Assembly: GCF_007991635.1 (NCBI RefSeq)
Contig: NZ_BJYS01000020.1
Location: 62,001-126,000, forward strand
Source of the DNA: Adhaeribacter aerolatus
Lineage (GTDB): Bacteria; Bacteroidota; Bacteroidia; Cytophagales; Hymenobacteraceae
DNA: 64,000 nt
Direction: 5' to 3'
Position numbers and translations under genes: made by a program
Notes under the pieces: generated by a model
What the model saw: only the letters and a program-made list of their open reading frames with translations
What the model was told of the DNA's origin: nothing
The model's database searches: none
Part shown: one piece after another, positions 17,537 to 43,067 of the stretch
Position numbering within the stretch: the first letter of the stretch is position 1
How the letters are laid out: each line of letters starts with the position of its first letter

Positions 17537-18622
17537 TTACTTAACCGCCGAAAATTTCTGAAACTCAGCGTTTACCTGGTCGTTGGTTAAGTTGCTGCCC
17601 GAATGAATAATTACTTTATGCCGGAAAGTAACCGATTTGCCGGGTGCCAGCTTATAGTTAAGCTCTTCTTTGCCGTTGCTCATGGCTTTCTGGCCTAGCG
17701 GATTAGCGGCGTATAAGCCGTAACCACGGGCGTGCCAGTAAGTAGGGTAACCAACATTCTGCGGATTATCCAGTATTACCAACGAAACGGGCTCTTGCCC
17801 AATAGTACCTACCAGGTTTACCCATTTACCCCGGGTTCCCCAAACATCGTCGCCGGTTTTACCTTCGCTGCTGATGTATTTGCCGGTTACGCCTTCGTTG
17901 TTAAGCTTAGGTACCGCAGTAGCCACACCGCTCGCATCGGTGAAAACTTCGGGCTTGTTAGAGGGGTGTTCCAGTTCGCGGGACAAGCGGATCCCCAGCA
18001 TACCTTCTTTGTTATCTTTAAACAATACCTCTTCTTTTAAAGCGGTTAGTTTAGTAATACGCTCGATGGTGCGGTCATTGCCCTGGCCGTTAAAAATAAA
18101 CCGGGTTTCTTCCAGCAGCAGGTTCGTGCCATCTGGTTTTTGCCAATCGGCGGTTACTACCAGTTCGGCTTTATCGTTGCCGCCGGTCATTTTGGTAACA
18201 GCCCGGTGCTTAATGGTACCGAAATCCTTTTTCTTTTCGGCCGGAATAGCGGTAGAGTTATTCCAGAAATCGAGACCGTTTACGTCGCCGTAGTTAAACC
18301 ACATACCTACGTGGTGCGGATGGTCTACCCGCTCGCCCGGCCGCGGGTCCATGGGCCAGCCCCGGGTTACGAGGGTACCTTTGGCAGTACGCAGCGGGTA
18401 TAAAACCGGCTTCATCAGCTCGTTGGGGTAAATATAAGAGGTAAAAGGTTTGCCGTCTACCGTAATATCTACGCGCTTGGCGGCTTTATTTTCGGTTATA
18501 GCAAAGCGTTGGGTTTTGGCAGGTTTACCTTGCCGCGGCTCTTTTGGTACAAAGCTCATGGCCAGGCAAACTACAGCCAGGGTAAGCATTCCCAGGCTTA
18601 CCCGTTTCATATTTCTCAGCAT
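17537..18622 (-). CDS. DUF6807 (PmoA-like) exported protein
   Basis: This 361-residue protein has a signal peptide ('LGMLTLAVVCLAMSFV'). It shows the DUF6807 pattern: 'YIYPNELMKPVLYPLRTAKG', 'RGWPMDPRPGERVDHPHHVG' with a His-rich cluster, 'MWFNYGDVNGLDFW', 'GMLGIRLSRELEH' and 'HARGYGLYAANPLG'. Database entries often call it 'methane oxygenase PmoA', but it is not related to methane oxidation; its role is unproven. It is the last gene of operon A, 18 bases after the Gfo/Idh gene, which points to a step in the same periplasmic sugar pathway. The conserved His cluster suggests a lyase-, epimerase- or metal-type site. Confidence 0.85.
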   Translation of the reverse strand: MLRNMKRVSLGMLTLAVVCLAMSFVPKEPRQGKPAKTQRFAITENKAAKRVDITVDGKPFTSYIYPNELMKPVLYPLRTAKGTLVTRGWPMDPRPGERVDHPHHVGMWFNYGDVNGLDFWNNSTAIPAEKKKDFGTIKHRAVTKMTGGNDKAELVVTADWQKPDGTNLLLEETRFIFNGQGNDRTIERITKLTALKEEVLFKDNKEGMLGIRLSRELEHPSNKPEVFTDASGVATAVPKLNNEGVTGKYISSEGKTGDDVWGTRGKWVNLVGTIGQEPVSLVILDNPQNVGYPTYWHARGYGLYAANPLGQKAMSNGKEELNYKLAPGKSVTFRHKVIIHSGSNLTNDQVNAEFQKFSAVK

Positions 18623-18640
18623 TCTCTTGATTTCTTCTCC

Positions 18641-19987
18641 TTAGCTAACTACAACATCCTGTTTGGTATCGTCGAAGGTTACCTTCTTACCGGTTTCCAT
18701 GGCGGTGCGGGTCATAATATTTGCAATAGAATGGTTATAACCAGCTTTTACCGAAGCATTAGGCGTTTTGCGGCTCCGCACGCATTCCATCCAGTTACGC
18801 ATGTGCAGCGAAGTCATCGGGTCGCCGCCGGTGTTGGCACCAGTTTCCATTTTAGCCGCGTTTGGCAAGGTAGCAGATTCCAGCAAGTTTGGTTTCATGC
18901 CCATTTCGTCGGCCATTTTTTTGGTTAAACCGCCTTCGGACGAAATTTTATTTGTATCCAGGTTTATCATACCGCCATTGGAGAAATACAGCTCTTTGGT
19001 ACCGCCGGCCGAGTTGTGGAACCGAGACGTGAATATTACCTGAAAACCTTTGGTCATGTCGTTTTGCGGACCGTAATCCATCACGGCAGTTAACGTATCG
19101 GCGTTGGTGCGGCCGTCTTTCCACACGTAAATACCACCGTTGGCGGCTACACTACGCGGATGATCCAGGCCGGTAAACCAGTGTACGGTATCAATCTGGT
19201 GTGCCATCCACTGACCAGGTATACCCGAAGAATAAGGCCAGAATAAACGGAATTCTAAATATTTACGCGGATCCCAGGCTACTTTCGGGCGGTTCATTAA
19301 GTAACGGTCCCAATCGGTATCTTCCTGACGGAGATCTTTTACTTCCGGTACCCGCCAGCGGCCGGGCTGGTTTACGTTCCAGCACATTTCTACCATGGTA
19401 ATATCGCCGAATTTACCCGAGCGGATGTAGTCGTTAGCGGCAATATAGTTAGGGGCACTGCGGCGCTGCGAACCAATCTGTACAATTTTCTTCGTTTCTT
19501 CCACGGCTTTCAGCAGGGCCCGCGCATCTTCCATGGTTTCGGCCATTGGTTTTTCAATATAGGCATCGCGGCCGGCCCGAACGGCTTCCACGCCCATTAA
19601 AGCGTGCTGAAAATCGGCAGTAGAAATAATTACCGCATCAATATCTTTATTGTCGTACAACTCATCGTTGTTCCGGTGCTTTTTAATTTTAACGCCTGCT
19701 TTGGATTTTATATAAGCCTCGGCGGCATCGCGGCGGCGGTTCCAGATGTCCGACACGGCGGCAAATTCAAAATTTAAATCTTTGGCATGGTTCATAAAAG
19801 AAGGCACCAGCGAACTTCTGAAACGATTGGAGAAGCCTACTATACCTACTTGTACCCGATCGTTGGCTCCTAAAATACGGCCATAGCTTTTTGCACTAAA
19901 GCCCATGTTCATGGCGGCTAAGCCTACCGTTCCCATCGCAGCTTTCTTCAAAAATGCGCGACGCGGGTTATTATTATTGTTTTCCAT
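18641..19987 (-). CDS. Tat-exported Gfo/Idh/MocA family oxidoreductase (operon A)
   Basis: This 448-residue protein has a twin-arginine signal (Arg9-Arg10, 'NPRRAFLKKAAMG'). The NAD(P)-binding domain starts 'RVQVGIVGFSNRF', with 'DAVIISTADFQHALMGVEAV' and the signature 'AYIEKPMAETMEDA'. 'IDTVHWFTGLDHP' supplies the conserved His of the catalytic region. Exported members keep a tightly bound cofactor and act in the periplasm. Established work on such clusters links them to oxidation of glycosides at C3 and to the matching reduction. Its neighbours are DUF1080 (53 bases upstream) and DUF6807 (18 bases downstream). The signal region is closely similar to that of the operon B paralogue at 36026. 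Confidence 0.9.
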   Translation of the reverse strand: MENNNNNPRRAFLKKAAMGTVGLAAMNMGFSAKSYGRILGANDRVQVGIVGFSNRFRSSLVPSFMNHAKDLNFEFAAVSDIWNRRRDAAEAYIKSKAGVKIKKHRNNDELYDNKDIDAVIISTADFQHALMGVEAVRAGRDAYIEKPMAETMEDARALLKAVEETKKIVQIGSQRRSAPNYIAANDYIRSGKFGDITMVEMCWNVNQPGRWRVPEVKDLRQEDTDWDRYLMNRPKVAWDPRKYLEFRLFWPYSSGIPGQWMAHQIDTVHWFTGLDHPRSVAANGGIYVWKDGRTNADTLTAVMDYGPQNDMTKGFQVIFTSRFHNSAGGTKELYFSNGGMINLDTNKISSEGGLTKKMADEMGMKPNLLESATLPNAAKMETGANTGGDPMTSLHMRNWMECVRSRKTPNASVKAGYNHSIANIMTRTAMETGKKVTFDDTKQDVVVS

Positions 19988-20040
19988 GTGTACTGTATGA
20001 TTTTAATTTAATTGGTGAATAATTCTGCAGTTAAGTTTAA

Positions 20041-20838
20041 TTAAAGCGTCCGGATTTTAATATTCCGGAAATGCACTTCATCGCTGTGGTCTTGTAATAA
20101 TAATGGCCCCTGGGCGGCTTCGCCAAAGTTTTCGAATTTCTGGTATTTGCTTTCGGCCACCAGTTTCCGGAATTCCGGACCGCCTCTTTCGTATTCCACT
20201 ACTTTGGTACCGTTCAGCCAATGTTCCACGTGTCTGTTTTTAGATATTACCCGTATCTGGTTCCACTCGCCAATAGGTTTGGCTTGCTTGCTTTGGGCTG
20301 GTATCAGGTCATAAAGTGAGCCAATGGTGCGGTTGCCGTTTTTGCCCATTTTAGCATCCGGGTGCCGGTCGTCGTCCAAAATTTGGAATTCCAGCCCGAT
20401 GGCCGAACCGGATCCTTTCCGTTCGGTTACAAAATATTTCAATCCGCTATTGGCACCGGGAGTTAACTTTGCTTCCAGGGTCAGTTCAAAATTATCAAAC
20501 TGGCTGGTTGTAACAATGTCACCGCCCTTCCGCGAGTCGCCGCTATTGGTTTTTAAAATTATTAGTTCGCCGTTTTCTATTTTCCAGCCCCCAGCCGGAA
20601 AAGCATCTTTGCCCACACCGCGCCACCCCGTGGCTGTTTTACCATCAAACAATAATTTCCAGCCGGCGCTTTCTTCCGCCGGTGTAAGCTGGTTCTGGTT
20701 CTCCGAATCGGCGTTTAGCTGCAAAGCCGCGCCTCCACCCAGATGAGTATCCGAAACCTGTTCCGCAGGCCGACAAGCGCCTGCTAAACCAGCTAAAACA
20801 AAGGCATAAATAAACAAGTAGCCTTTAATCAGGTGCAT
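20041..20838 (-). CDS. DUF1080 / 3-keto-disaccharide hydrolase family lipoprotein (operon A)
   Basis: This 265-residue protein has a lipobox ('GLAGAC', Cys22). The concanavalin-like DUF1080 domain (PF06439) covers about 58-264: 'GWKLLFDGKTATGWRG', 'GGDIVTTSQFDNFELTLEAK', 'GANSGLKYFV', 'LEFQILDDDRHPDAK', 'SLYDLIPA', 'GEWNQIRV', 'HVEHWLNGTKVVEYER' and 'FRNIKIRTL'. Family members have been linked to cleavage of 3-keto-glycosides. The lipid anchor puts it in the periplasm or on the outer membrane, next to the exported oxidoreductase that would make the keto sugar. The operon B paralogue is at 37449. Confidence 0.92.
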   Translation of the reverse strand: MHLIKGYLFIYAFVLAGLAGACRPAEQVSDTHLGGGAALQLNADSENQNQLTPAEESAGWKLLFDGKTATGWRGVGKDAFPAGGWKIENGELIILKTNSGDSRKGGDIVTTSQFDNFELTLEAKLTPGANSGLKYFVTERKGSGSAIGLEFQILDDDRHPDAKMGKNGNRTIGSLYDLIPAQSKQAKPIGEWNQIRVISKNRHVEHWLNGTKVVEYERGGPEFRKLVAESKYQKFENFGEAAQGPLLLQDHSDEVHFRNIKIRTL

Positions 20839-20991
20839 GTTATTTTCTTAATTTGGCTAAAAGATATTGTACAATGTTCTATTTAAATTATTTTATATTT
20901 ATAAATTAACAATTTACATATAAATATTTAAATTAGCTACCTCCATCGCCAAATATTATTCAGCAGCAAGCAATCTGCTTCCGCAAATGCA

Positions 20992-21924
20992 TTAAGATTG
21001 AACCTTAAAACCCAGCGTATTAAGATAACTACGGGTTATCTCGGCGCATTGTGCCGGGGTTTTAGCTTTATCCGGCACCGAGTCCAGTTCCACAATTCCC
21101 CAGCCTTTAAACTTCACATCGGCCAGAGCTTTAAACACGCCCGGCAGGTTTACATTCCCCTGACCCAGTTCCACAAAAGTATAAGCCTTTGGATTTGAAT
21201 CGCCGGTTTTGGGCCGCACATCTTTTAAATGCAAGGCATTTAAACGGCTTTGGTATTTTTTTATAGCCGCCACCGGATCGCCGCCACCCTGGTGATAATG
21301 GGCAGTATCGAGTTCCAGTTTTACATTTTGCGGATCGCAACTGCTCAGAATAATATCTACTTCTTCCGGAGTTTCGCCTAACTGGTGCATGTGGTTGTGG
21401 TAATTGGTTATTACGCCCATGTCGCGGCTGCGACGGCCTATTTCGTTTAGCAAGCGGCCGTATTTTTGCAAATCCTCGGTGGTAGGGGCGGCGCCGTCTT
21501 TAGGACGGGAAGAGTTGGTTATCTGAATATTCCGGCCACCCAGAGCTTTTACAAATTTAGCATTATCTAAGTGCGTCTGAATTACTTTTTCGTCGTCGCC
21601 AGTGTTAATATTGGCATTGCCGCTCGAAAACATGGGCAATTCCAGTTTATACTGGGTGAGCACAGCCTTTAATTCGGCGGGTTTGGCACTATATTCTTTT
21701 AAAACATTGGAGCGCAACTGCACACCTTTAAAGCCCAGCGCCGCAATATCTTTAATGGCCTGCACATCATTACCGCCCCAGGTTATGGCCGAATAGCCTA
21801 ATTTTAAACCGGGAACCGAAATGCGCCCCGTTCCACCGGCCTGAAAACCAGTTAACACCGGTAAAGAAAGTGCCGTGAGGCCTAATTGCGCAAGAAACGT
21901 TCTACGCGATATTTCTGTAGACAT
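20992..21924 (-). CDS. Tat-exported sugar phosphate isomerase/epimerase-type TIM barrel (operon A)
   Basis: This 310-residue protein has a twin-arginine signal (Arg7-Arg8, 'EISRRTFLAQLG'). The barrel has a typical metal site: 'GVITNYHNHMHQLGETPEE', 'VKLELDTAHYHQGGGD', 'LNALHLKDVRP' and 'WGIVELDSVP'. It should isomerise or epimerise a keto sugar in the periplasm. It is the first enzyme gene after the SusC/SusD pair. A hairpin lies between SusD and this gene, and 153 bases separate it from DUF1080. Confidence 0.9.
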   Translation of the reverse strand: MSTEISRRTFLAQLGLTALSLPVLTGFQAGGTGRISVPGLKLGYSAITWGGNDVQAIKDIAALGFKGVQLRSNVLKEYSAKPAELKAVLTQYKLELPMFSSGNANINTGDDEKVIQTHLDNAKFVKALGGRNIQITNSSRPKDGAAPTTEDLQKYGRLLNEIGRRSRDMGVITNYHNHMHQLGETPEEVDIILSSCDPQNVKLELDTAHYHQGGGDPVAAIKKYQSRLNALHLKDVRPKTGDSNPKAYTFVELGQGNVNLPGVFKALADVKFKGWGIVELDSVPDKAKTPAQCAEITRSYLNTLGFKVQS

Positions 21925-22020: not shown

Positions 22021-23646
22021 TTAATAACCTTGGTTTTGCGGGAAAGCTTCTTTCCCACCGGTAGTCCGGTCAATCTGGTCGTTAGGTATCGGACGCAGCG
22101 TATGAAATGGTTGAATATTGGGCCCGCCATCGGGATTATACTTTTTAACCCGCTCTACCAAAGTACCGGTTCTTACCAAATCAAACCAGCGTTCCATTTC
22201 ACCCAATAATTCACGGGCTCTTTCGTCCAGAATAAAGTCCAGGTTTAACTGACCTGCGGTTATTTCCATTTCCTTTTCTTTGCCCGGCAGCGCCGCACGC
22301 CGCCGCAGGGTGTTAATATAAGTAACTGCTTCTTCGGGTTTACCGGATTTAAGTAAAGCTTCGGCCGCAATTAAGTAAGTTTCGGCTAAACGAGCCACCA
22401 TAAAATCACGGGAACCTCTTTCTTCCTGCACCGAAAGCCGCTGTGGGTCTAAAAATTTACTTAAACTAGGAAAATAACGATAATTCCCGGCTGATAAAAC
22501 TTCTGCCCGGTCTATAATCCGGTAGTTCTTTTTGGCTTTAAACTCGGCCGAAATATTGGTAGGCGCTACCCAGATAGCGGTATCGCCAATTTTCATGCCG
22601 GGAGCCAACGTAGCCGGATTATTTGCATAAAATACCTGTTTAAAAGAACCGTTGTACCGGGAATCTTTCGTACGGTCGAACAAATCGAGTGTATACATGG
22701 TAGGCTTAAAACGTTTAAAGGGCCGGCCATTAGCTACATCACGCATGGTTCCTTTATGGCCCGCATCGTACTCCATAATAAAATAAAGATGGCCACTGTT
22801 GCCGTTACCATTCGTTAATAAGCTATTGGTGTACTGTACCGACCAGACTACTTCGGCATGTTCCTGGTTAGACTGATCAAAAACATCAGCAAAATTAGGC
22901 AACAGCCTAAAACCATAACTAGGGTTGTTTATTACACCTTTGGCCAGTTCTGCTGCCCGCTGATAATCATCTGGTTTGGCGGCACCTGCATTACTCGCCC
23001 GGGTTAAAAGCACTTTGGCCAGCATGTGTTCGGCAGCCGGTTTGGTGGCCCGGCCATATTCGGTTTGCTTTGTCGGCAATACTTTAATAGCCTCTTCCAA
23101 ATCCTGAACAATTACGTCGTAAACATCTTTAACCGATGAACGGCTGGCGGTAGTCTGGACTTCGGTGGTTTCGTGTAAGGCCAGGTGTATAGGCCCAAAA
23201 GTTTGAACCAATACAAAGTAGTAATGTGCCCGCAAAAACTTAGCTTCCCCTACCCGAATGGCTTTTCGGGCCTCATCTACTTCAACCGTGGGGGCGCGAT
23301 CGATAACGGTATTTGTAGTGTTAATAGCGCGGTAAAAATCATTCCACAGATCCCGGATATAATCTACCTGGGCATTTAGATTAGGCGTATAATCGTTCAC
23401 AAACTTATAATCACCATCGGCACCTTTGGTATAGGTATCGGTACCAAATACGGTAAGGGTAAAGCCGCGCTGGGTGCCGTACCACGAACGCAATGGCTCG
23501 TACGAGGCCTTTACAGCATCTTCGAAACCAGTTGGTGTTTTAAAATATTCCGGCGTAACCACCGATACAACTTCTTCTTCGAGGGTATCCTTACACGCTT
23601 GGCTGAAAAAGGCCAGGCAGCAGGTAAGTATTAATATCTTCTTCAT
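22021..23646 (-). CDS. RagB/SusD family outer-membrane glycan-binding lipoprotein (operon A)
   Basis: This 541-residue protein has a lipobox ('FSQAC', Cys18) and the SusD helical TPR fold: 'YFKTPTGFEDAVKASYEPLR', 'GEAKFLRAHYYFVLVQTFG', 'MLAKVLLTRAS', 'RLAETYLIAAEALLKSG', 'ILDERARELLGEMERWFDLV', and the C-terminal 'LRPIPNDQIDRT' with 'PQNQGY'. SusD proteins are surface lids that bind the glycan and close the SusC channel. It starts 20 bases after the SusC stop. The substrate cannot be read from the sequence. Confidence 0.95.
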   Translation of the reverse strand: MKKILILTCCLAFFSQACKDTLEEEVVSVVTPEYFKTPTGFEDAVKASYEPLRSWYGTQRGFTLTVFGTDTYTKGADGDYKFVNDYTPNLNAQVDYIRDLWNDFYRAINTTNTVIDRAPTVEVDEARKAIRVGEAKFLRAHYYFVLVQTFGPIHLALHETTEVQTTASRSSVKDVYDVIVQDLEEAIKVLPTKQTEYGRATKPAAEHMLAKVLLTRASNAGAAKPDDYQRAAELAKGVINNPSYGFRLLPNFADVFDQSNQEHAEVVWSVQYTNSLLTNGNGNSGHLYFIMEYDAGHKGTMRDVANGRPFKRFKPTMYTLDLFDRTKDSRYNGSFKQVFYANNPATLAPGMKIGDTAIWVAPTNISAEFKAKKNYRIIDRAEVLSAGNYRYFPSLSKFLDPQRLSVQEERGSRDFMVARLAETYLIAAEALLKSGKPEEAVTYINTLRRRAALPGKEKEMEITAGQLNLDFILDERARELLGEMERWFDLVRTGTLVERVKKYNPDGGPNIQPFHTLRPIPNDQIDRTTGGKEAFPQNQGY

Positions 23647-23666: not shown

Positions 23667-26600
23667 TTAAAATTTTGCGTTAATACCAAACATAATCAGC
23701 CGCGCAGATGGGGTGCCAATCGAGATTAGGTTTGATTGTTCGCGGTCGTTGTTCCGGCCCCGGGCTTGTTCCGGATCCAGGTTTTTGCCGTAATTAGAAA
23801 AAATGAACGGATTCTGTGCACTGGCATAAACCCGCAGCGACGACATTTTTACTTTACTGCTAATGGCAGCCGGAATATTATACCCCAGGCTAATATTTCT
23901 CACTTTGGTAAATGAACCATCGAAATAAGACATGGTGGTATTATACAGCGGGCGCTCCTGGTTTTGATTAGGCCGTGGGAAGGCGTTGGTTGGGTTATTC
24001 GGTGTCCAGTAGTCAACATCCATATTGTTGTACCGGCCAGCCAGGAAGTTTAGATTATTATACAAGTCGCTTTGGATAAGGCTTCCCTGGCGGGTAAAAA
24101 TAAAGAACGAGAAATCTATTCCTTTGTAGCTAAACCTATTGGTAATACCACCCGACCAATCCGGAATATCAGAGCCTAATATTACCCGGTCCAGCGCATT
24201 AATAGCGCCATCGTTGTTCTGGTCTTTTACTTTAATTTCGCCTGGGTTCTGCTTGTATTTCTTGGCTTCATCGGCTTCGCTGGTTTGCCAGATGCCTAGC
24301 TTGTCGTAATCATAATATACGGTTAGGGGCTGGCCTATAAAGTACAGACTACCGACATCGTTGTTTTTACCGTTATAAATTTCTACAATTTGTTCTTTGT
24401 TCGAGTTAAAGTTTAAATCGGTGGTCCATTTAAAGCCATCGCCGCCCATGTCTACGTTAACTGTTGAAATAGCAAATTCGACACCGGTGTTCTTGCTTTT
24501 ACCTACGTTTTGCAAGACACTGCCGTAGCCGCTGGTGAAAGGCAGGTTTCTGGGCATTAGCAAGTCGTAGGTATCTTGCTGGTACACTTCTAAGGATCCT
24601 GAAATACGGTTATCCAGGAATCCATAATCTAACCCTACGTTGGTAGTGGCTGTGGTTTCCCAGCGTAAATTCGGATTAACCAAGGTATTAGGTGAATAAC
24701 CAAAAGCACCTGAATTGCCAAATGCATAGGTAGTGCGGTTTAAAGAACCTTGCGTAGCATAGGCATTAATACCCTGATTACCGGTTAAGCCGTAACTGGC
24801 CCGGAGTTTCAGATTATCAATAAAGGCAATATCTTTTATGAAAGATTCTTCACTCAGGCGCCAGCCAATGGCCGCAGAAGGGAAGAAACCATATTTTTTA
24901 GTATCCCCGAATAAACCTGTTTCACCGGCAAATTTAGAAGATCCATCTATCCGGGTGGTCAGCGTCAATAAATATTTATCTTTAAAGCCATAGTTTATCC
25001 GGCCCATGTAAGAAAGTAGGCCACTTTCGTTCAAATCACTGTCTATGCCTTCAATATTTGGCGCATGTGATAATTTATAAAATAATTGTCTTTCAGAAGT
25101 TAAACCGCTGGCCCGTATACTATAGAATTCCCGCTGTTCCTTTTGGATTGAAAAGAGGCCGGTTATATTAATATCATGCATTTCCTTGAACGTTTTACTA
25201 TAGTTCAGGATGTTTTCCACGGTGTAGGAGAACAAATAATTGTTATCGTTCCGGGCAAAAGGGGTACCACCCGACCGGGCATTGGTCAGGCTGGCCTGAA
25301 ACTGACCACTACGACGGGCAGAATAATCCGGACCAAAATTTAAGCGGTAAGTTAACCCTTGTGCAATCTGGTATTCGGCAAATAAACTGGTAAAAATCCG
25401 GGCCCGGCGGTTTTCATTTACAACCGCATTGGGCACTACCTCTAATAAGGGGTTAGTCTGCGCCCCATCCGTTGTATTCCGGAAAAGAAGCTTACCATCT
25501 TTATCGTACGGCGAGCCCAAAGGATTTTCACGCAACGTAACGCCATAAGGGTTGGGACCAATATTCAGCTTTCCTAAACTACCCAGCATGGTTACCCCAA
25601 ATTTTAAGCGATCGGTTATCTGCTGGTCCAGCGATATACGAATATTGTCGCGGGTAAAGTCCTGCCCAATAGTTACCCCTTTTTCGTAGAAATGATTAAA
25701 AGAAACCGAATAGCGGGTTTTCTCACCACCTCCCGAAATACCTAGCTGGTGGCTTTGCTGGGAACCCGTCCGGGTTATATAATCCTGGTAATTAGTCGAC
25801 CGGCCGGAGGCTATGCCCTCTAATTCAACGGCATCAAAGATGGCTTTATCCGCCGCAACCGGGTCGGCATCATTGTATTTACCAATGGCCCGGCGCGACT
25901 CGCGTTTGTATTCGGCAAACTCGGGCCCGTTCATTACATCGTACTGATTAATTATTTTATTAACTCCGTAATACCCGTCGTAAGTAACACTTACCTTACC
26001 AGGGGTACCCCGTTTGGTGGTAATAATAACTACCCCATTGGCACCCCTGGATCCGTAGATAGCGGTAGAAGAGGCATCTTTCAGCACTTCCATAGATTCA
26101 ATGTCCTGTGGGTTGATATCACTGATATCACCCGAAAGCGGAATGCCGTCTACTACGAAAAGTGGATCATTCCCGGCGTTAAAGGACCGCCGGCCCCGTA
26201 TCCGAACATTTACCCCGCCACCCGGGCTGTTGCCCTGGCTTAAAACTTCAACCCCGGCTGCTCTACCCTGTAAGGCCTGTTGGGCATTGGTAACCGGTAG
26301 TTCAGAGATTTCTTTGGAAGATACCGAGGAAATGGCACCTGTTACCTGACTTTTCTTTTGGGTACCATAACCCACCACTACAACTTCCTGCAGCGCTTTG
26401 GCATCTTCGGACATGGTAATATTAACCGCCCCAGGACCAGAGAAGGTTTTTTCGGTGGTAGTAAAACCAATAAAGGAAAACACCAGCGTACCGCCTTGTT
26501 CGGGTACACTAATTGCATAAGTCCCATCTAATCCGGTGGTAGCGCCAATAGTGGTGCCTTTCAAAAGCACCGTAACGCCCGGCAGTGGCTCGCCTTTGGC

Positions 26601-31365: not shown

Positions 31366-31392
31366 TTTTATCATCCGCTTTTATTTACCTCC

Positions 31393-34230: not shown

Positions 34231-34340
34231 TTTAACCAGAAGAGCCGCTTCGAAAATTAAAAAGAAATAATCCAGATGAGCGCACAAAAGAAATCAGCCG
34301 GATAACTTCTCTGGCAAAGAGTAAGCTATCCGGCAAAAAT

Positions 34341-35204
34341 TTATTCTTTCAGCGATTTCAGGTAAGCCATGGTCTGGGGCACCTGCACACTTTTTGCTTT
34401 ACTCTCATCCTCAATATAATAATGCTGCACACCGGCTTTTTTAGCGGCTTTTAATATTGCCGGAATATTTAGCTGGCCGGTACCCAAGGCCACATCATTT
34501 TCGGTAGAAGTCTGGCCCGTAAAGTCGCCTTTCACGCCTTTGCGTAAATCTTTCAGGTGCATTAATTTAAAGCGCTTGGGGTATTTATTCAGCAATTTGG
34601 CCGGGTTCTGGCCCGGATGAAAGGCCCACAATATATCCAGTTCAAACGATACGTATTTGGGGTCGGTATTCTGCACAATGTAATCGAAGAAAGTACCTTT
34701 TTGGTAAGGCTGAAATTCATAGCCGTGGTTATGGTAGCAAAAGGTTAAGCCGTGTTGTTCTTTCAATATTTTGCCGGCCTTATTAAAATCGGCTACGGCT
34801 TTCTGGGCATCTTCGAGTTTAAAAGGTGCTTTGTGCGGAATCCAGGCAACCCGTACGAAAGAGGCACCCAATACTTTGGCTTTACGGGCTACTTCCTCGG
34901 TTTTATTCACCAGTTCTTCGTAGCCCACGCCAAAAGAAGAACATTTAATATTGCGCTCGTCCAGTAATTTCCGCATCTCTTCCGGTGTTTTGCCAAACAA
35001 GTTGGAAAACTCCATATCGGTAATGCCAAGTGCCTTAATGGTATCCAGGGTAGCTGCCACATCTTTGGCAAAACTCTGACGGTGGGTATACGATACCAAA
35101 CCAGGCTTTTGCGGAAACAGGGGTTTGCCCGATTGGGCGAAACTATTATCCAGGCCCAAAAACAGCAGGGTAACAAAACTTAGTAGGTGATAAATTTTAG
35201 ACAT
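34341..35204 (-). CDS. Exported sugar phosphate isomerase/epimerase-type TIM barrel (operon B)
   Basis: This 287-residue protein has a Sec signal peptide ('FVTLLFLGLDNSFAQ'), not the Tat signal of its relatives. The barrel's metal-site residues are visible: 'LTFCYHNHGYEFQPY', 'VSFELDILWAFHPG', 'RFKLMHLKDLRKG' and 'QHYYIEDES'. It should act on a sugar in the periplasm. It is the operon B counterpart of the gene at 20992, but sits after the Gfo/Idh and cupin genes instead of before DUF1080. A short insertion-like element lies just upstream (35262-35412). Confidence 0.9.
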   Translation of the reverse strand: MSKIYHLLSFVTLLFLGLDNSFAQSGKPLFPQKPGLVSYTHRQSFAKDVAATLDTIKALGITDMEFSNLFGKTPEEMRKLLDERNIKCSSFGVGYEELVNKTEEVARKAKVLGASFVRVAWIPHKAPFKLEDAQKAVADFNKAGKILKEQHGLTFCYHNHGYEFQPYQKGTFFDYIVQNTDPKYVSFELDILWAFHPGQNPAKLLNKYPKRFKLMHLKDLRKGVKGDFTGQTSTENDVALGTGQLNIPAILKAAKKAGVQHYYIEDESKAKSVQVPQTMAYLKSLKE

Positions 35205-35460: not shown

Positions 35461-35919
35461 TTAATTCTTGGCTTTATTTTTTAACATCCCCGGCGAATGC
35501 CAGCTAAAAACATGATAGGTAGCCGGCACATTGCCTACATTTTTAATATTGTGCATTTGATTGGAGGCTTGAAAAATAACCGAGCCCGGCCCTACCCGTT
35601 TCATTTGTCCATTAACCAGCGATTCCACCATTCCTTCTTTTATAATCAATATTTCTTCTTCCGGATGTTTATGTGGTGGATGAGATGCCTCGCCAGGTTT
35701 GAGGGTGGTTACATGGCATTCGAGCTCATCCAGGGTAGCGGTTGCTCCCCGGAAAAACCGCCGCGAAAAACCAGTGGGTGTTTCTTTTGCTTCTATTTGT
35801 TGCCAGTCGAAGATAGAGGATTGCATGACATTGCCCTGCGAATACGTAACCGCCACGGTTGCTAAAGTAGCGCTCATGGTAAATAAAGCTATGCCAATAT
35901 CTCTCCGGGTTATCATCAC
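35461..35919 (-). CDS. Exported cupin-domain protein (operon B)
   Basis: This 152-residue protein has an N-terminal signal-like segment with Arg5-Arg6 ('MITRRDIGIALFTMSATLAT'). The cupin barrel holds the metal motif 'HPPHKHPEEEILIIKEG' (two His and a Glu), then 'GPGSVIFQASNQMHNIKNVG' with the second His motif. Such small cupins often isomerise or protect sugars, or bind a metal. It follows the Gfo/Idh gene by 106 bases in operon B and has no counterpart in operon A. Confidence 0.88.
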   Translation of the reverse strand: MMITRRDIGIALFTMSATLATVAVTYSQGNVMQSSIFDWQQIEAKETPTGFSRRFFRGATATLDELECHVTTLKPGEASHPPHKHPEEEILIIKEGMVESLVNGQMKRVGPGSVIFQASNQMHNIKNVGNVPATYHVFSWHSPGMLKNKAKN

Positions 35920-36025: not shown

Positions 36026-37384
36026 TTAAGCAATCTTGGGCTCCCAGCCTTTTTCATACTCCCGGCTCCATAATTTCTCGGCTTCTTTATCGCCGATGAT
36101 GTGGCCATTCTTAGGATCGATTTTCAAGTCGCGACCTACCCGCCAGGAGATATTCCCGAGCTGCATGGCCACGGTACTCTTATGGCCCAGTTCCACATCG
36201 CAGTTCGGCCGCCGGTTATTTTTAATGGCATCGAGGAAATCGGCTACGTGCAGGCTGTCCATGCCCAGGCTCGGGCTGGCGGTATTACGGCCTTCCAGAC
36301 TGGCTGTTTCATTCGCTTTAACATCCTGTAAAAGTTTTCCTTCCTGATCGTAAATCCGGTAACCGTCATGACCGGTATCCAGGCTGCCTTTATCGCCATA
36401 AAAAATAATGCCCCGGTCCTGGCCTTCTATCTTCCTGCCGTTGGAACTGCGGCTTTCCCACATCAGCGATATGCGACCCGGATAATCCATTATCACTACT
36501 TGCGTGTCAGGCGTCTCCCAATCATCCTGGAACTGGTAGCGCCCTCCCACGGAGCTCACCCGAATGGGATAATCTACCCCTAAGCCCCAGCGGGCCACGT
36601 CTACCTCATGCGTTCCATTGTTGAGCGCTTCGCCGGTACCATAATGCCAAAACCAATGCCAGTCGTAATGAATTAACCCTTCTTTATAAGCTCTTCGGGG
36701 GGCGGGTCCTTGCCATAACTCATAATCCAGCCAGGAAGGTACTGTGCCCGGCTTCAGATTAGTAGCTTTGCGATTATTGGTGTACCAGGTTTTAGCCATA
36801 TACACCCGGCCAATAATACCTTCGTGCAATTTCTTAATTCCTTGCGTCAGGATAGGGGCTGAGCGGCGCTGGGCTCCCATCTGCACCACCTTATTATACT
36901 TGCGGGCAGCAGCAATGGCCAATTCACCTTCCCGGGGGTTGTGGCTCAGTGGTTTCTCCACGTACACGTGTTTGCCAGCCTGGCAACCCATAATAGTTAA
37001 AGGCGAATGCCAGTGATCGGGCGTAGCAATATAAATAGCATCAATAGATTTATCGGCCAATACTTTGCGGCAATCTTTTTCAGATTTAGGGGTGCTCTTC
37101 GCCTTCGCATCCATAATGCTTTTAATGGCCTTGGGAATGGCTCTTTCATCCACATCGCATACGGTGGCAACCTCCGCATTTTTCTGCTGCGCAATGGTGC
37201 GCCCCATACTATTGCCCCGGCTATTCACCCCAATAGTGGCAATGCGCACCAATTCATTGGCGCCAATAATGCGGTTATAACTCTTGGCACTAAAGCCAAA
37301 GGTGCTACTCAGGGCTAAGCCAACCGTTCCTAAACCGGCTTTTTTCATAAACTCCCGGCGAGAATTATTCTGTTCGTTATTCAT
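36026..37384 (-). CDS. Tat-exported Gfo/Idh/MocA family oxidoreductase (operon B)
   Basis: This 452-residue protein has a twin-arginine signal (Arg9-Arg10, 'NSRREFMKKAGLG') and 'GFSAKSY' after it, the same as in the operon A paralogue. The cofactor domain begins 'LVRIATIGVNSRG', with 'DAIYIATPDHWHSPLTIMGC' and 'HVYVEKPLSHNPREG'. 'HYGTGEALNNGTHEVDVARW' marks the catalytic region. The periplasmic location, DUF1080 neighbour and SusC/SusD pair suggest oxidation of a glycoside. The protein body differs clearly from the operon A copy, so substrate ranges probably differ. Confidence 0.92.
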   Translation of the reverse strand: MNNEQNNSRREFMKKAGLGTVGLALSSTFGFSAKSYNRIIGANELVRIATIGVNSRGNSMGRTIAQQKNAEVATVCDVDERAIPKAIKSIMDAKAKSTPKSEKDCRKVLADKSIDAIYIATPDHWHSPLTIMGCQAGKHVYVEKPLSHNPREGELAIAAARKYNKVVQMGAQRRSAPILTQGIKKLHEGIIGRVYMAKTWYTNNRKATNLKPGTVPSWLDYELWQGPAPRRAYKEGLIHYDWHWFWHYGTGEALNNGTHEVDVARWGLGVDYPIRVSSVGGRYQFQDDWETPDTQVVIMDYPGRISLMWESRSSNGRKIEGQDRGIIFYGDKGSLDTGHDGYRIYDQEGKLLQDVKANETASLEGRNTASPSLGMDSLHVADFLDAIKNNRRPNCDVELGHKSTVAMQLGNISWRVGRDLKIDPKNGHIIGDKEAEKLWSREYEKGWEPKIA

Positions 37385-37448: not shown

Positions 37449-38261
37449 CTAAATATTCTCCAGGTTCCGGATTTTGATATTGCGGTAATGTACGGTATCG
37501 CCGTGGCCCTGCAATAAAATATGGCCTTTAGGCATTTCGCCGAAGCCTTGCAAATCTTTGTATTTACTGGCGGCTACCAATTTGCGGAATTCGTCGCTAC
37601 TCCGCTCAAACGCCAAAACTTTGCTGCCGTTTAACCAGTGTTCCACGTGGTTACCCTTAACCACAATCTTAACCTGGTTCCATTGGCCCACGGGGTTCGC
37701 TTTTTTGTTTTTAGCCGGAATTAAGTCGTATAACGACGCTAAAGTACGATTGCCGTTCACGCCTAATTTGGCATCGGCGTGGTTGGCGTCGTCTATTATC
37801 TGGTACTCCAGGCCCAGGTAATTACCTTTCTGGTTCGGAAAATTATTAACCACAAAATATTTAATGCCGCTGTTGGCGCCCTTCGGGATTTTGAATTCCA
37901 GGGCTAATTCAAAATTGCCGTATTGTTCTTTCGTGATAATATCGCCGCCGCTGGCATGGCTATCGCCGGTAGCGCCTAACACCGTCAAAATACCGTTTTC
38001 TACTTGCCAGCCTTGCGCCGGGAAACCGTTGCCCTTGGTACCCGTCCAGGCTTCGGTCGATTTGCCATCGAAGAGTAATTTCCAGCCGTCACTTTTTTCT
38101 TTTGCCGTTAAGTTGTTGGTTCCACTGGCTCCTTTTGCCGCGCTGGTTTTCTGGCCAAATGCGGTAACGGAACTGCTCAACATTACCGCTAAAAGCAGCA
38201 ATAATACCCCTAAAGAATATCCCGAACCGGGCTGGTTAAAAATTATTTTTCTATTGTTCAT
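37449..38261 (-). CDS. DUF1080 / 3-keto-disaccharide hydrolase family exported protein (operon B)
   Basis: This 270-residue protein has a hydrophobic signal ('GVLLLLLAVMLSSSVTAFGQ') without a lipobox, unlike the operon A lipoprotein. The DUF1080 domain covers about 58-268: 'DGWKLLFDGKSTEAWTG', 'GGDIITKEQYGNFELALEFK', 'GANSGIKYFVVNN', 'LEYQIIDDANHADAKLG', 'SLYDLIPAKNKK', 'GQWNQVKIV', 'HVEHWLNGSKVLAFERS' and 'YRNIKIRNL'. It should cleave a keto-glycoside in the periplasm and partner the Gfo/Idh enzyme 64 bases downstream. Confidence 0.92.
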   Translation of the reverse strand: MNNRKIIFNQPGSGYSLGVLLLLLAVMLSSSVTAFGQKTSAAKGASGTNNLTAKEKSDGWKLLFDGKSTEAWTGTKGNGFPAQGWQVENGILTVLGATGDSHASGGDIITKEQYGNFELALEFKIPKGANSGIKYFVVNNFPNQKGNYLGLEYQIIDDANHADAKLGVNGNRTLASLYDLIPAKNKKANPVGQWNQVKIVVKGNHVEHWLNGSKVLAFERSSDEFRKLVAASKYKDLQGFGEMPKGHILLQGHGDTVHYRNIKIRNLENI

Positions 38262-38339: not shown

Positions 38340-39848
38340 TTAATAACCAGGATTCTGATTTATTTTTTCGGGGTTAGACTGAATTACCTGCAAAGGAATC
38401 GGGAACAACAGCATGTTGTCTTTCCAGGCCGTCGGGTTAAAACCATTCTGTTCTTTTTGCTCGGCCGTCATCACGGCTTTGGCCCTTTCGGTCCGGACTA
38501 AATCAAACCAGCGGTGGTTCTCGAAGGCCAGTTCTACGCGGCGCTCTTTTTCAATGGCCAGTAAAAATTCCGCATCAGAACTAAAGGGGGCATAATCCGG
38601 CAAAATATTGGCACTGCCGCCGGTGCTGTTGCGGGCCCGCTGCCGGATTTTGTTCAGGTAAGTAAGTGCTACGGCTTGTTGTTTACCCTGACGTACCAAA
38701 GCCTCGGCGTATATTAAGTAAATATCGGCCAAACGCAGTTCTATCCAGTTATTGTCGTTATCCGAACCACTAAAAGATACGTCGTAATATTTTTTCACAT
38801 ATTTCTCGTTTACGGTTTGGCCGCCGGGTACTGCCACGTAACCATCGCTCATCGAGATCGATTTACGCGGGTCACCGGGCTCGTAAGCCTTCGACATATC
38901 GGGCGTTGGGGCATTAAAGCCGCTCTTATCACCTACCTGCACTACTTCTTTGTTCGAAAAACGCGGGGCAAAATCGTTGTTCCAGGGGCTGCCGGTACTG
39001 GTGCCACCTTTTTTGTATTGAATTTCGAACAGCGATTCGGAACTGTTTTTCTTTGTAACATCAAACAAGGCTTTATAATCGGGTACCAGCGAATATTGCG
39101 GCATGTTAATTACTTCCAAAGCTTTTGCTTCGGCCAGGGCGTAATAGGGTGCACCTTTTTTAAGCGGGTAACCAGCCATGGTCATGTAAACTTTGGCCAG
39201 TAAACCTTTGGCTCCACCCACGGTAACGCGGCCTTTATCTACGGCGGCATAACTGGTCGGCAAATTGGCTTCGGCAAACTTCAGGTCTTCTACAATAAAA
39301 TTATAGATTTCTTCGGTTGAGGACCGCCCAATGGTATAAGCTTCCTGCACACTCAGTTGGTGGTCTACTTTGGGCACATCGCCGTACACCCGCACCAGCC
39401 AGAAATATACCAGTGCCCGGATAAACCTGGCTTCGGCTTTGTATTGCTCCTTCAGTTTATTATCGGTAAACGTAACAGCATCTATCTTATCCAGCACAAT
39501 ATTGCTCCGCAGAATGGTATTGTAGCTATCGTTCCAGACGTTGGTGATGAAGGTATTATCCGACAGCAGCGGGTCACCGAAATTATCGATGGAGGTCATG
39601 TCTTTGGAGTTGCCGGGCACCCACGAAAAAGTGGTATTATCGGACCGAATCTCGCTGACATAGATAAAATTCTGGTTGTACAGCGAACGTAAGGAGGCGT
39701 AAGGCGACAAAACCGCCTGGTTCATGTCTTTTTCGGTCTTGTAAAAAATGCCCGCATTCATATCCGAAATGGGCTGCAGATCAATAAAATCTTCTTTACA
39801 AGAAAAAGTAAAAAGACTTATTAAACCTAATAAATATATTTTCTTCAT
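38340..39848 (-). CDS. RagB/SusD family outer-membrane glycan-binding lipoprotein (operon B)
   Basis: This 502-residue protein has a lipobox ('LFTFSC', Cys17). The SusD fold is visible: 'GIFYKTEKDMNQAVLSPYAS', 'AEARFIRALVYFWLVRVYG', 'GLLAKVYMTMAGYPL', 'LRLADIYLIYAEALVRQGKQ', 'EKERRVELAFENHRWFDLVR' and 'FPIPLQVIQSNPEKINQNPG'. It starts 24 bases after SusC. It should bind the operon B substrate at the cell surface and close the SusC channel. Confidence 0.95.
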   Translation of the reverse strand: MKKIYLLGLISLFTFSCKEDFIDLQPISDMNAGIFYKTEKDMNQAVLSPYASLRSLYNQNFIYVSEIRSDNTTFSWVPGNSKDMTSIDNFGDPLLSDNTFITNVWNDSYNTILRSNIVLDKIDAVTFTDNKLKEQYKAEARFIRALVYFWLVRVYGDVPKVDHQLSVQEAYTIGRSSTEEIYNFIVEDLKFAEANLPTSYAAVDKGRVTVGGAKGLLAKVYMTMAGYPLKKGAPYYALAEAKALEVINMPQYSLVPDYKALFDVTKKNSSESLFEIQYKKGGTSTGSPWNNDFAPRFSNKEVVQVGDKSGFNAPTPDMSKAYEPGDPRKSISMSDGYVAVPGGQTVNEKYVKKYYDVSFSGSDNDNNWIELRLADIYLIYAEALVRQGKQQAVALTYLNKIRQRARNSTGGSANILPDYAPFSSDAEFLLAIEKERRVELAFENHRWFDLVRTERAKAVMTAEQKEQNGFNPTAWKDNMLLFPIPLQVIQSNPEKINQNPGY

Positions 39849-39872
39849 TTTCTTAAACCTGATGCTAAAAAA

Positions 39873-42800
39873 TTAAAAACTTACATTAAGACCCGCGATG
39901 AAGGAGCGGGCAGCCGGGTATCCCAGGTAATCGCCGCCCCGCGATAAGCCGGAGCCTTCGCTGCTGGTTTCGGGATCGTAGCCGGGATATTTGGTGAAGG
40001 TGTACAGGTTCTGGCCGGTTACGTACAGGCGTAAACCTTTCATGCGGATGCGCTGCAGCAAAGCATTATCGAAGTTATAACCCAAGGTAACGTTGCGGAT
40101 ACGCAGGTAAGAACCATTCTCCACCCAGTAGCTCGAAGGCTCTTTTTGTAAACCTTTGGGGTCGCGGTTGGCCCGCAAAATATCGCCACTGCCCACTTCG
40201 GTTTCGGAACGCCAGCGGTCGTTTAATTTATCCCGGCCGTTACGGTCGCCGTGGTAAATGCCCACCATCCGGTTAAAGAAGCTGAATATTTTAGCGCCCT
40301 GCGAACCGGTTAACTGTACATTAAAATCGAAGTTCTTAAAGGAAAAATCGTTGTTAAAGCCATAGATAAATTTAGGCTGATTATTGCCGAGGAAGGTTTT
40401 ATCGGCAGCCGTAATGGAGCCGTCTCCGTTTACATCTATATATCTGGGGTCACCCGGGCGATCGTTGGGCAAATGCGGTGCGGCATCTAACTCAGCCTGG
40501 TTTTTAAATACGCCATCATATTTGTAGCCGTAAAAGGTAGCTACCGGTTGGCCAATGGTGGTTATGAAAGTATTGGCAGCGTTAGCGGCACCGGCGTAGA
40601 TGGGCCGTGCATCCGGACCTAAAGCCAATACTTTGTTGCGGTTGAAGGAAATATTGAAATCGGTAGACCATTTAAAGTCGCCGGTTAAGTTGCGGGTACG
40701 CAGCAAATATTCCATGCCCTTGTTCTCCACCTGACCAATATTTTGCAGCTGCGAAGCATAACCGGTAAGCGTTGGCACCGGCACATTCAGTAATAAATCT
40801 ACCGAAGTACTGTTATAAAAATCGGCTTCTAATCGGATGCGGTCGTTCAGGAGGCCAAAGTCAAAGCCTAAGTTCCACTGCCGGGTTTTTTCCCAACCTA
40901 AATCGGGGTTCGGGTAATTAATCGGGTTAACCGTATTAACGAGCGCATTATTTAAAACATAATAACCGGTGCCGGTACGGGCAATGGCATCGTAATTACC
41001 AATGCGGTTGTTACCTACCAAACCCCAGCTGGCCCGCAGTTTCAGGTCGCTGATTTGGCTAACGTCGCTCAGGAAGCTTTCGCTGTTAACGCGCCAGCCT
41101 ACCGACACGGAAGGAAAAGTACCCCATTTGTTATTGGCGCCAAACCTAGAAGAACCATCCGTCCGGAAATTAGCCGTTAATAAATATTTGCTGTCGTAAG
41201 CATAATTAATCCGTCCGAGGTAAGAAATCATGGAATTCTGGTACTCGGTATTGCTACCGCCTACAATCTGCCCGGCGTTGATGGTGCGCACCACATCGTT
41301 CGGGAAATTTTGCGCATTTACGCGGGCGTACTCGCCGTAAACTTTTTGGGTGGTGTAACCAACCAAGGCATTAAAACTGTGTTTCTCGCCGAAGTTCTTG
41401 TTGTACGTCAGGGTTTGCTCAATTAGCCAGTCACGGTCGAGCCAGGTTTCGTTACGGGCATCAGCCGTTTTGGGCGCGCGGGAGCCGTCGGTATCCACAA
41501 AAGAAGGCCGGTAATATTTTAAACGGCGGTTATCCAGCGTACCGTTCAGGCTGATTTTATAGTTCAGTCCTTCTATAATTTGGTACTGCGCGTAAGTAGA
41601 AGCAATAATGCCGTTCTTGTTGGTGAAGTTGGTCACATTTTCGGCGATGCCCAGCGGGTTAGCTACGTCGCCGGCCCAGATTTCGGGGTTACGCACCTGC
41701 GAGCCGTAGGTGCCATCGGCATTCCGCACCGGGTAAATCGGCGGCAGGTAAATGGCATAAGAAAGTGGGCTGTCTTTACCGTTGTCCAGGTTATTGCTCT
41801 CAGAGAAGTAGCCGGCAATATTTAACCCTATTTCCAGCTTTTTGCCAATATTAGAAGTTACGCTGGTTCTTAAGTTATAGCGTTTGTAATCGCTGTGAAT
41901 CTCAATACCGTCCTGGTCGGTGTAACCGCCCGAAACCGAATAGCGGGTGTTTTCGCTACCGCCCATAATCGATAATTCGTGCCGCTGCATCATGGCGTTG
42001 CGCAACATTACATCCTGCCAGTCGGTGTCTACAAAGTTATTGGGGTCGTTAAAACTTTCCGGAATAACATAGAAGCTGGAGTTAGAATATTTCTGCCGCA
42101 TCGAGTTGGGATCGTTGATGGTATGGGCAGGGTCGCCGGCCATCGGCGCACGGTCGAGCCAAGCCTGGTTGTGGCCGTCTTTGAAGAACTGGAGATATTC
42201 CTCCCGGTTCATCATGTCGATTTTTTTAGCTGCCTGCTGCATGCCAAAATAGGTATTGAAAGCAATGGTAGGCGCACCTTTCTGGCCTTTCTTGGTGGTA
42301 ATAATTACTACCCCGTTAGAGCCCCGCGAACCGTAAATAGCCGTAGAAGAGGCATCTTTTAATACCTGAATGCTTTCAATATCCGAGGGGTTAATCAGGG
42401 AAAAGGCGCTGCTTTCCATGGGGTAACCGTCGATTACATACAGCGGCGACATACCCGCGGTAATAGAGCCCGTACCCCGTACCCGGATGCTTAAGCCTTC
42501 GCCGCCCGGCGCACCGCTGGTTTGCTGCACCTGCACCCCGGCCATTTGCCCCACCAAAGCCTCGCCGTAAGATACGGCCGCCTTGTTCTTGAATTTTTCG
42601 GCCGACACGGTAGCTACTGCCCCGGTTAAATCCGCTTTTTTCTGGGTACCGTAACCTACTACCACCACTTCCTGCAGGGCTTTGGCATCTTCGGACATGG
42701 TTATATTAACTGCCCCGGGGCCAGAGAAGGTTTTCTCGGTGGTGGCAAAACCAATAAAGGAAAATACCAGCGTGCCGCCCTGCTCGGGTACACTAATGGC

Positions 42801-43067
42801 GTAAGTGCCATCCACTCCGGTGGTAGCGCCAATAGTAGTGCCTTTTAGTAAAACCGTAACGCCTGGCAAGGCCTCGCCTTTGGCTGAACTCACTTTACCA
42901 GTAATCGGCCAGTTAACCGGCTTACTGAGGAGATGCTTGGTAGCAGAAGTTTTAACAGTAATTAAATTGCTTTTACCGACTGAGCCGGCAAAGGCTCCTC
43001 CGGAAAAACAACATGCCAATAGCAAGATATAAACCTTGCCTGGCCTTGTTCGGGTAGAATTTTTCAT
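39873..43067 (-). CDS. SusC/RagA family TonB-dependent outer-membrane transporter (operon B)
   Basis: This 1064-residue protein has a signal peptide ('YILLLACCFSGGAFAG'), a regulatory-like beta domain ('ITGKVSSAKGEALPGVTVLL'), a TonB box region 'ALQEVVVVGYGTQKK', a plug ('GTGSITAGMSPLYVIDGYPM', 'QVLKDASSTAIYGSRGSNGV') and a beta barrel ending 'SFIAGLNVSF'. From about residue 51 to 145 it is nearly identical to the operon A SusC, then diverges sharply. A palindromic operator lies about 225 bases upstream of its start (43292-43311), so a LacI-type regulator may control this operon. Confidence 0.96.
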   Translation of the reverse strand: MKNSTRTRPGKVYILLLACCFSGGAFAGSVGKSNLITVKTSATKHLLSKPVNWPITGKVSSAKGEALPGVTVLLKGTTIGATTGVDGTYAISVPEQGGTLVFSFIGFATTEKTFSGPGAVNITMSEDAKALQEVVVVGYGTQKKADLTGAVATVSAEKFKNKAAVSYGEALVGQMAGVQVQQTSGAPGGEGLSIRVRGTGSITAGMSPLYVIDGYPMESSAFSLINPSDIESIQVLKDASSTAIYGSRGSNGVVIITTKKGQKGAPTIAFNTYFGMQQAAKKIDMMNREEYLQFFKDGHNQAWLDRAPMAGDPAHTINDPNSMRQKYSNSSFYVIPESFNDPNNFVDTDWQDVMLRNAMMQRHELSIMGGSENTRYSVSGGYTDQDGIEIHSDYKRYNLRTSVTSNIGKKLEIGLNIAGYFSESNNLDNGKDSPLSYAIYLPPIYPVRNADGTYGSQVRNPEIWAGDVANPLGIAENVTNFTNKNGIIASTYAQYQIIEGLNYKISLNGTLDNRRLKYYRPSFVDTDGSRAPKTADARNETWLDRDWLIEQTLTYNKNFGEKHSFNALVGYTTQKVYGEYARVNAQNFPNDVVRTINAGQIVGGSNTEYQNSMISYLGRINYAYDSKYLLTANFRTDGSSRFGANNKWGTFPSVSVGWRVNSESFLSDVSQISDLKLRASWGLVGNNRIGNYDAIARTGTGYYVLNNALVNTVNPINYPNPDLGWEKTRQWNLGFDFGLLNDRIRLEADFYNSTSVDLLLNVPVPTLTGYASQLQNIGQVENKGMEYLLRTRNLTGDFKWSTDFNISFNRNKVLALGPDARPIYAGAANAANTFITTIGQPVATFYGYKYDGVFKNQAELDAAPHLPNDRPGDPRYIDVNGDGSITAADKTFLGNNQPKFIYGFNNDFSFKNFDFNVQLTGSQGAKIFSFFNRMVGIYHGDRNGRDKLNDRWRSETEVGSGDILRANRDPKGLQKEPSSYWVENGSYLRIRNVTLGYNFDNALLQRIRMKGLRLYVTGQNLYTFTKYPGYDPETSSEGSGLSRGGDYLGYPAARSFIAGLNVSF

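Follow-up and report, generated by a model that had tools for sequence, protein, structure and literature searches.

Two adjacent SusC/SusD-linked modules in Adhaeribacter aerolatus with a probable role in redox-assisted glycoside breakdown

Two neighbouring operons of Adhaeribacter aerolatus, here called A and B, place the same families of sugar enzymes behind a SusC/SusD pair, which raises the questions of whether they are copies of one ancestral operon and what chemistry they would perform. Our analysis points, with moderate confidence, to a pair of periplasmic modules, each linked to SusC/SusD and each assembled on its own, that break down glycosides with the help of redox chemistry and came to lie side by side in an Adhaeribacter-like sub-clade. 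Oxidative glycoside cleavage is a lately recognised alternative to glycoside hydrolases, in which gene neighbours reveal missing enzymes. The pathway type is known; the useful result is the combination of genes, their split origin and, above all, the pairing of a DUF6807 protein with a Gfo/Idh dehydrogenase.

Gene content and genomic setting

The window, meaning the whole 64,000-nucleotide stretch that was analysed, corresponds to C20:62001-126000 of a 6.68-Mb genome. Inspection of the sequence located all 13 genes of operons A and B on the minus strand, with the content, coordinates and order that an earlier note on this DNA had given, and profile searches assigned their families, every Pfam call exceeding its curated cut-off. 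The genes are listed 5' to 3' within each operon, together with a third SusC/SusD pair lying between them.

Operon B
39873-43067, minus: SusC B, a TonB-dependent importer with CarbopepD_reg_2, Plug and barrel domains
38340-39848, minus: SusD B lipoprotein (SusD_RagB, 3e-39)
37449-38261, minus: DUF1080-B, 3-keto-disaccharide hydrolase family (PF06439, 2e-50), Sec signal by inspection
36026-37384, minus: Gfo B, Gfo/Idh dehydrogenase of type B (PF01408), Tat motif RREFMK at residue 9, EKP at residue 143
35461-35919, minus: small cupin (PF07883, 5e-14), Tat-like RRDIGIA
34341-35204, minus: TIM barrel B, TIM-B (PF01261), Sec signal
33319-34287, minus: tandem VOC, a secreted metalloprotein (PF00903 twice), probable start at the internal ATG at 34230

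Between the operons
28006-32892, plus: third SusC/SusD pair (Pfam SusD-like_2), unrelated to the A and B pairs

Operon A
23667-26783, minus: SusC A (Plug and CarbopepD_reg_2)
22021-23646, minus: SusD A lipoprotein (SusD_RagB, 8e-38)
20992-21924, minus: TIM barrel A, TIM-A, isomerase-like (PF01261, 7e-32), Tat signal SRRTFLA
20041-20838, minus: DUF1080-A, 3-keto-disaccharide hydrolase family (PF06439, 7e-52), possible lipoprotein
18641-19987, minus: Gfo A, Gfo/Idh dehydrogenase of type A (PF01408), Tat motif RRAFLK, EKP motif at residue 145
17537-18622, minus: DUF6807, secreted, with a predicted galactose-mutarotase-like fold (PF14100, 7e-82)

The shared core described in the earlier note held up, its count of four functions being corrected to five families, with the TIM barrel common to A and B. 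Each operon joins a SusC/SusD pair to linked sugar-acting enzymes, the combination that defines a polysaccharide utilisation locus (PUL), and none of the nine A/B enzymes matched a glycoside hydrolase or lyase family in Pfam, in agreement with the earlier proposal of cleavage without a classical glycosidase. The whole genome contains 23 DUF1080 matches, so that the presence of two DUF1080 operons is by itself unsurprising. A search for the Bacteroidota promoter pattern returned one match in the window, which is below chance, and none upstream of A or B.

Inspection of the N-termini revealed twin-arginine motifs in Gfo A, Gfo B and TIM-A and a Tat-like motif in the cupin, along with Sec-type signals in TIM-B, DUF1080-B, DUF6807 and VOC, while DUF1080-A may be a lipoprotein. 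On the basis of these export signals, all nine enzymes are likely periplasmic. Farther downstream of A, the window also encodes an alpha-L-fucosidase (GH29) and a protein with a weak match to GH88-type uronyl hydrolases (11605-12963 and 723-2105), as well as two predicted proteins (3366-4997 and 5545-6675) that have no Pfam match and carry internal and mutual DNA repeats of 72-76% identity.

Relationship of the two operons

The earlier note regarded A and B as rearranged paralogous operons, and in its full form this reading holds that one ancestor gave rise to two operons for two glycosides, equipped with alternative finishing enzymes. The occurrence of the same five families in both operons speaks for it, as does an 82% DNA identity between SusC A and SusC B over their first 466 nt, a stretch that begins 32 bp ahead of the start codon. 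The identities of the remaining sequences argue otherwise, falling to 42% for SusC as a whole, 32% for SusD, 50% for DUF1080 and only 29% for both the Gfo and the TIM pairs. A tree of 70 Gfo proteins, built by a quick method that flagged some rows for long branches, placed Gfo A and Gfo B in separate deep clades, each spanning Bacteroidota, Acidobacteriota and other phyla, which indicates that the two operons are independent assemblies. Whole-operon duplication was ruled out by this tree together with the A/B identities.

The SusC likeness is itself confined to the N-terminus and represents a copied segment (window positions 26350-26815 and 42635-43100) that takes in the signal together with the N-terminal CarboxypepD-like domain (residues 55-136). 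Over codons 45-145 the paralogues are 84-88% alike, close to the 87-89% of orthologues, whereas after codon 200 the paralogues drop to 57% and the orthologues remain at 76-92%, the SusC B orthologue in relative G001 showing 92% DNA identity in this part. The simplest reading of these sequences is that one SusC took over the N-terminal module of the other in the ancestor of the sub-clade.

Gene order among relatives, a comparison that the earlier note had proposed, likewise speaks against rearranged paralogues, since each order is kept separately. Order A (SusC-SusD-TIM-DUF1080-Gfo-DUF6807) is conserved in G001, G002, G003, G005 and G006, where its chromosomal surroundings mostly differ, and it recurs without SusC/SusD in G012 and G040; it is present in all good genomes of the genus with data. 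Order B is kept in two of them, G001 and G007, the G007 contig beginning inside SusC. With VOC and DUF6807 also co-occurring in other genomes, as described below, we regard descent of both operons from a single ancestral operon as highly improbable. A and B are most likely separately assembled modules, made from related parts, that lie side by side in the Adhaeribacter-like sub-clade. Look-alike duplicate operons can thus be independent assemblies of one toolkit.

Adjacency is nevertheless a consistent feature of operon B. In G001 and G007, B lies directly upstream of A on the same strand, about 0.7 kb separating the end of VOC from SusC A with no genes between, and the third SusC/SusD pair that fills this junction on the opposite strand in the window is absent there. 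Among the genomes examined, B was found solely upstream of and adjacent to A (in its own genome, G001 and G007) and never alone. This arrangement would suit a joint action of A and B on one complex substrate rather than two, as would loci L110 and L117, where a type-B Gfo gene, a type-A Gfo gene and DUF6807 follow one another in a single operon. The 32% identity of the two SusD proteins suggests different ligands, however, and B is present in only three genomes; we therefore consider a joint substrate unlikely.

Predicted chemistry of the core enzymes

The uptake, oxidation and cleavage scheme of the earlier note stands as far as homology supports it, namely through SusC/SusD, the export signals and the combined Gfo, DUF1080 and TIM set. 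In the series of steps that we propose, SusC/SusD would import a small glycoside or oligosaccharide, and the Tat-exported Gfo/Idh, probably with a tightly held NAD, would oxidise a ring hydroxyl, most likely at C3. The TIM barrel and DUF1080 would then cut the glycosidic bond by C1-C2 elimination and re-add water, after which the keto sugar would be re-reduced, possibly by the same Gfo/Idh. Neither operon contains a second reductase, and with one exported Gfo each, a redox-neutral, self-recycling cycle in which the same Gfo/Idh performs the re-reduction is the most economical reading. We infer every one of these reactions, as well as the C3 position, the redox recycling and the leaning toward uronic acids discussed below.

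Membership of both dehydrogenases in the Gfo/Idh/MocA family is clear, with PF01408 scores of 63.0 and 63.8 bits against a cut-off of 24 and the EKP motif at residues 145 and 143. In a PDB search, their nearest solved relatives were 8tdh/8tdf for Gfo A (3e-16) and again 8tdf/8tdh for Gfo B (8tdf, 5e-24), and the DgpA structures 7xr9 and 9m3d matched both. The model of BT_2158-type glycoside 3-dehydrogenases (NF058561) gave 93 and 143 bits, below its equivalog cut-off of 750, and that of BT_2159-type disaccharide 3-dehydrogenases (NF058563) gave 38.7 and 23.1 bits, below 650. Given the distance from the BT_2158 cut-off, the oxidised position is not transferable by homology. DUF1080-A and DUF1080-B match PF06439 over the whole domain (176.7 and 171.8 bits; curated cut-off 26.8), and the solved relatives of DUF1080-A are 4jqt (2e-81), 3hbk (2e-75) and 8tda (2e-41). 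For TIM-B, the nearest solved structure was 8tct (5e-26), followed by 8tcs and 8tcd. We take the 8tc- and 8td- entries to belong to the work on the 3-keto-glycoside pathway of B. thetaiotaomicron. The YHNH..EF, ELD/QMD and HLKD/HIKD motifs of TIM-B align with 8tct, reproducing the metal-site motifs (YHNH, E/Q-x-D and H-x-KD) of the eliminase/hydratase TIM barrels, so that TIM-B is probably a 3-keto-glycoside eliminase or hydratase. TIM-A resembles IolE instead (3cny, 6.5e-14; active-site motifs YHNHM, DTAH, HLKDV and VELD aligned). IolE catalyses the loss of water beta to a ketone, a reaction of the type that also underlies keto-glycoside elimination.

These assignments agree with published work. 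DUF1080 proteins include a 3-ketotrehalose and a putative 3'-ketolactose hydrolase (PMC9007349), and BT2158 is a periplasmic glycoside 3-dehydrogenase (PMC11300592). Elimination and hydration fall to TIM barrels both in A. tumefaciens (PMC10628242) and, as LgdB1/LgdB2, in B. smithii (PMC7676230), which speaks against the treatment of the TIM barrel as a bystander isomerase in the earlier note. The overall logic of C3 oxidation, beta-elimination, hydration and reduction is likewise established (PMC7676230, PMC10628242).

The four known systems closest to A and B each differ from them. The B. thetaiotaomicron BT2156-BT2159 cluster shares the periplasmic Gfo/Idh glycoside 3-dehydrogenase and the DUF1080 3-ketotrehalose hydrolase (PMC9007349, PMC11300592), whereas A and B have a single Gfo per operon that falls outside the BT_2158 and BT_2159 equivalog models, their own SusC/SusD, and the additional DUF6807, VOC and cupin. 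The LgdA-LgdB1-LgdB2-LgdC levoglucosan route and the A. tumefaciens OGE/HYD clusters have 3-oxidation, elimination, hydration and reduction in common with our scheme, proteins resembling sugar-phosphate isomerases performing the elimination and hydration (PMC7676230, PMC10628242), but as described they operate without DUF1080, DUF6807 or SusC/SusD, and the A/B enzymes carry export signals. In the LacABC plus DUF1080 lactose route of Caulobacter and Pedobacter, DUF1080 and periplasmic disaccharide oxidation recur (PMC9007349), the oxidation being performed by the membrane LacABC dehydrogenase rather than by an exported Gfo/Idh. The C-glycoside deglycosidases DgpA-C and CarABC likewise pair Gfo/Idh 3-oxidation with a TIM-barrel Mn eliminase (PMC10628242); unlike them, A and B contain DUF1080, and no small beta-subunit gene of the DgpA-C/CarABC type was identified in either operon.

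Two other readings of the same enzymes deserve consideration. The exported Gfo/Idh proteins could be complete NAD-dependent glycosidases of the GH109, GH4 or NanOx type, running the full cycle in one active site and leaving the products to the other operon genes. Gfo B does match 2ixa (5.6e-7), which we take to be a GH109 structure, and a periplasmic location favours a bound, self-recycled cofactor. The dehydrogenase-family enzyme YjhC runs such a cycle, with regeneration of NAD (PMC7315737). Gfo B is much closer to 8tdf/8tdh (5e-24) than to 2ixa, however, and dedicated DUF1080 and TIM genes would be redundant, which leaves this possibility with little weight. Degradation of cyclitols or related polyols by a dehydrogenase and an inosose-dehydratase-like TIM barrel would explain why TIM-A is closest to IolE and why both Gfo proteins match inositol 2-dehydrogenase models, yet both matches lie far below the IolE and IolG cut-offs (on the IolE inosose dehydratase model TIGR04379, TIM-A and TIM-B score 114.4 and 59.7 bits against an equivalog cut-off of 290). 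Since DUF1080 would be out of place in an inositol route and TIM-B is closest to 8tct-type enzymes rather than IolE, cyclitol degradation appears doubtful, and oxidation-assisted glycoside cleavage remains our preferred reading.

Two observations in the region downstream of A concern redox partners. A small c-type cytochrome (15787-16236), which is also found near A in G001, G003, G006 and G007, is a possible candidate electron acceptor. Within 6939-9889, a PQQ-dependent dehydrogenase (PF01011) follows immediately after a Tat-exported TIM barrel (PF01261), possibly a further oxidation-plus-elimination pair; the same arrangement recurs downstream of operon A in G001 (L072).

DUF6807 and the other tail enzymes

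The DUF6807 protein matches PF14100 with 275.5 bits against a curated cut-off of 27, its closest named relative being a protein of an Adhaeribacter MAG (90%). Among 395 Bacteroidota genomes, 54 contain the family, whose range extends to Acidobacteriota and Gemmatimonadota. We compiled 75 DUF6807 loci, picked by closeness to a set including the window protein, many of them related and their counts accordingly not independent. In 50 of these 75, a Gfo gene on the same strand was at most three genes away, compared with 6 of 460 among farther genes in the same loci; a TIM barrel and DUF1080 were equally close in 22 and 14 loci, respectively. Where a Gfo gene stood directly upstream, it was of type A in 30 of 36 cases, and DUF6807 adjoins Gfo genes of both types.

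An AlphaFold model of DUF6807 based on 56 sequences reached a pLDDT of 91 and matched galactose mutarotases (3mwx at Z 17.0 across 235 residues, GalM 4bze at Z 16.7), consistent with their beta-supersandwich fold. Other supersandwich enzymes score alike, the domains of PL26 and further sugar enzymes giving Z values of up to 18.3. Alignment with a shallow GalM profile of two sequences gave an hhalign probability of 0.3, and on this comparison the likeness of DUF6807 to the tested GalM proteins may be limited to the modelled fold. The residues invariant among the 56 sequences include the polar D100, H101, H103, D203, K205, R264, D285, H297 and R299, which look like an active site, and the family has conserved motifs of its own (DHPHH, KDNKEG and WHARGYG). 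DUF6807 is thus a Gfo/Idh partner of wide distribution whose modelled fold is mutarotase-like, and it may act on a keto sugar shared with the dehydrogenase, either interconverting anomers or epimers or catalysing an elimination. A role as keto-sugar mutarotase or epimerase would fit both the predicted fold and the dehydrogenase pairing.

The genes around DUF6807 hint at uronic-acid-containing substrates. DUF6807 operons elsewhere hold altronate dehydratase, UxuA, UxaC and GH67. Cyclobacteriaceae loci (L109, L110, L117 and L118) place DUF6807 and Gfo behind genes for altronate dehydratase, an SDR and mannonate dehydratase, with a TRAP-type-looking transporter and a PfkB kinase nearby; in Parapedobacter, DUF6807 precedes glucuronate isomerase and an MFS transporter; and a distant DUF6807 in G046 adjoins UxuA and a GH67 alpha-glucuronidase. 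Of 44 genomes in the 395-genome sample that carried both genes, 5 had UxuA, counted among the matches listed, no farther than 10 kb from DUF6807, against 0.45 expected from random placement when genomes were treated as single molecules of rounded size, and none of 5000 random placements reached this value. Outside the genus, VOC-B has a single good relative (37%, G297), which adjoins DUF1080 and the tagaturonate epimerase UxaE. Within this genus, no uronate genes stand beside operon A, and UxuA of the own genome lies on other contigs, which makes uronic acids a lead and not a finding. Our tentative proposal, which we consider possible rather than probable, is that Gfo/Idh and DUF6807 form an undescribed multi-phylum catalytic pair for glycosides containing uronic acids, Gfo producing a keto-uronoside and DUF6807, as a free-standing protein of modelled mutarotase fold, taking the next step. 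If true, it would assign the first function to a family formerly annotated as methane oxygenase. Gene-neighbour evidence has tied DUF6807 to a partner enzyme, a modelled fold and a class of candidate substrates, so that its function is directly testable.

Contrary to the earlier note, the finishing enzymes are not ALTERNATIVES: A-type operons in other genera contain VOC alongside DUF6807, and a B-type Gfo can likewise be paired with DUF6807. A single-domain VOC gene lies within the A-type operons of G012 (TIM-DUF1080-VOC-Gfo-DUF6807, an order repeated in Sabulibacter ruber) and G020 (DUF1080-Gfo-DUF6807-VOC), and this co-occurrence ruled out an either/or choice of tail enzyme. The VOC-B protein itself is rare: apart from this genome, the close relatives that have it are G001 and G007, and the 395 genomes contain two distant relatives. 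Its four metal ligands (H196-E245-H263-E314) lie in the C-terminal half only; in an alignment with five relatives (A3) they are kept in the full-length proteins and missing from the N-terminal half. Extradiol enzymes have a three-ligand pattern, and a two-domain extradiol dioxygenase was provisionally set aside on account of the four-ligand H-E-H-E site, the full-length HpaD match being weak (49 bits against 321). A VOC model built from a single sequence (pLDDT 36) was discarded. The cupin carries an HxH...E...H motif and has only weak PDB relatives, with no KdgF-like match at E 0.001. As putative metalloproteins, VOC and the cupin would carry out an enediolate-type isomerisation in operon B. 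At L174:6828-10775, a SusC-SusD-aldo/keto reductase-DUF2264-VOC operon includes a distant relative of VOC-B (28% in alignment A3).

On a soil cosmid with which an S. meliloti mutant regained growth on lactose, a PF14100 gene forms part of a possible operon (PMC5342196). Directly downstream of DUF6807 in other Hymenobacteraceae (L093:11273-13597, and also L094 and L077), we observed a protein combining DUF7133, HEAT and cytochrome c domains, a set that resembles Lac161_ORF7, reported to be active on lactose (PMC5342196).
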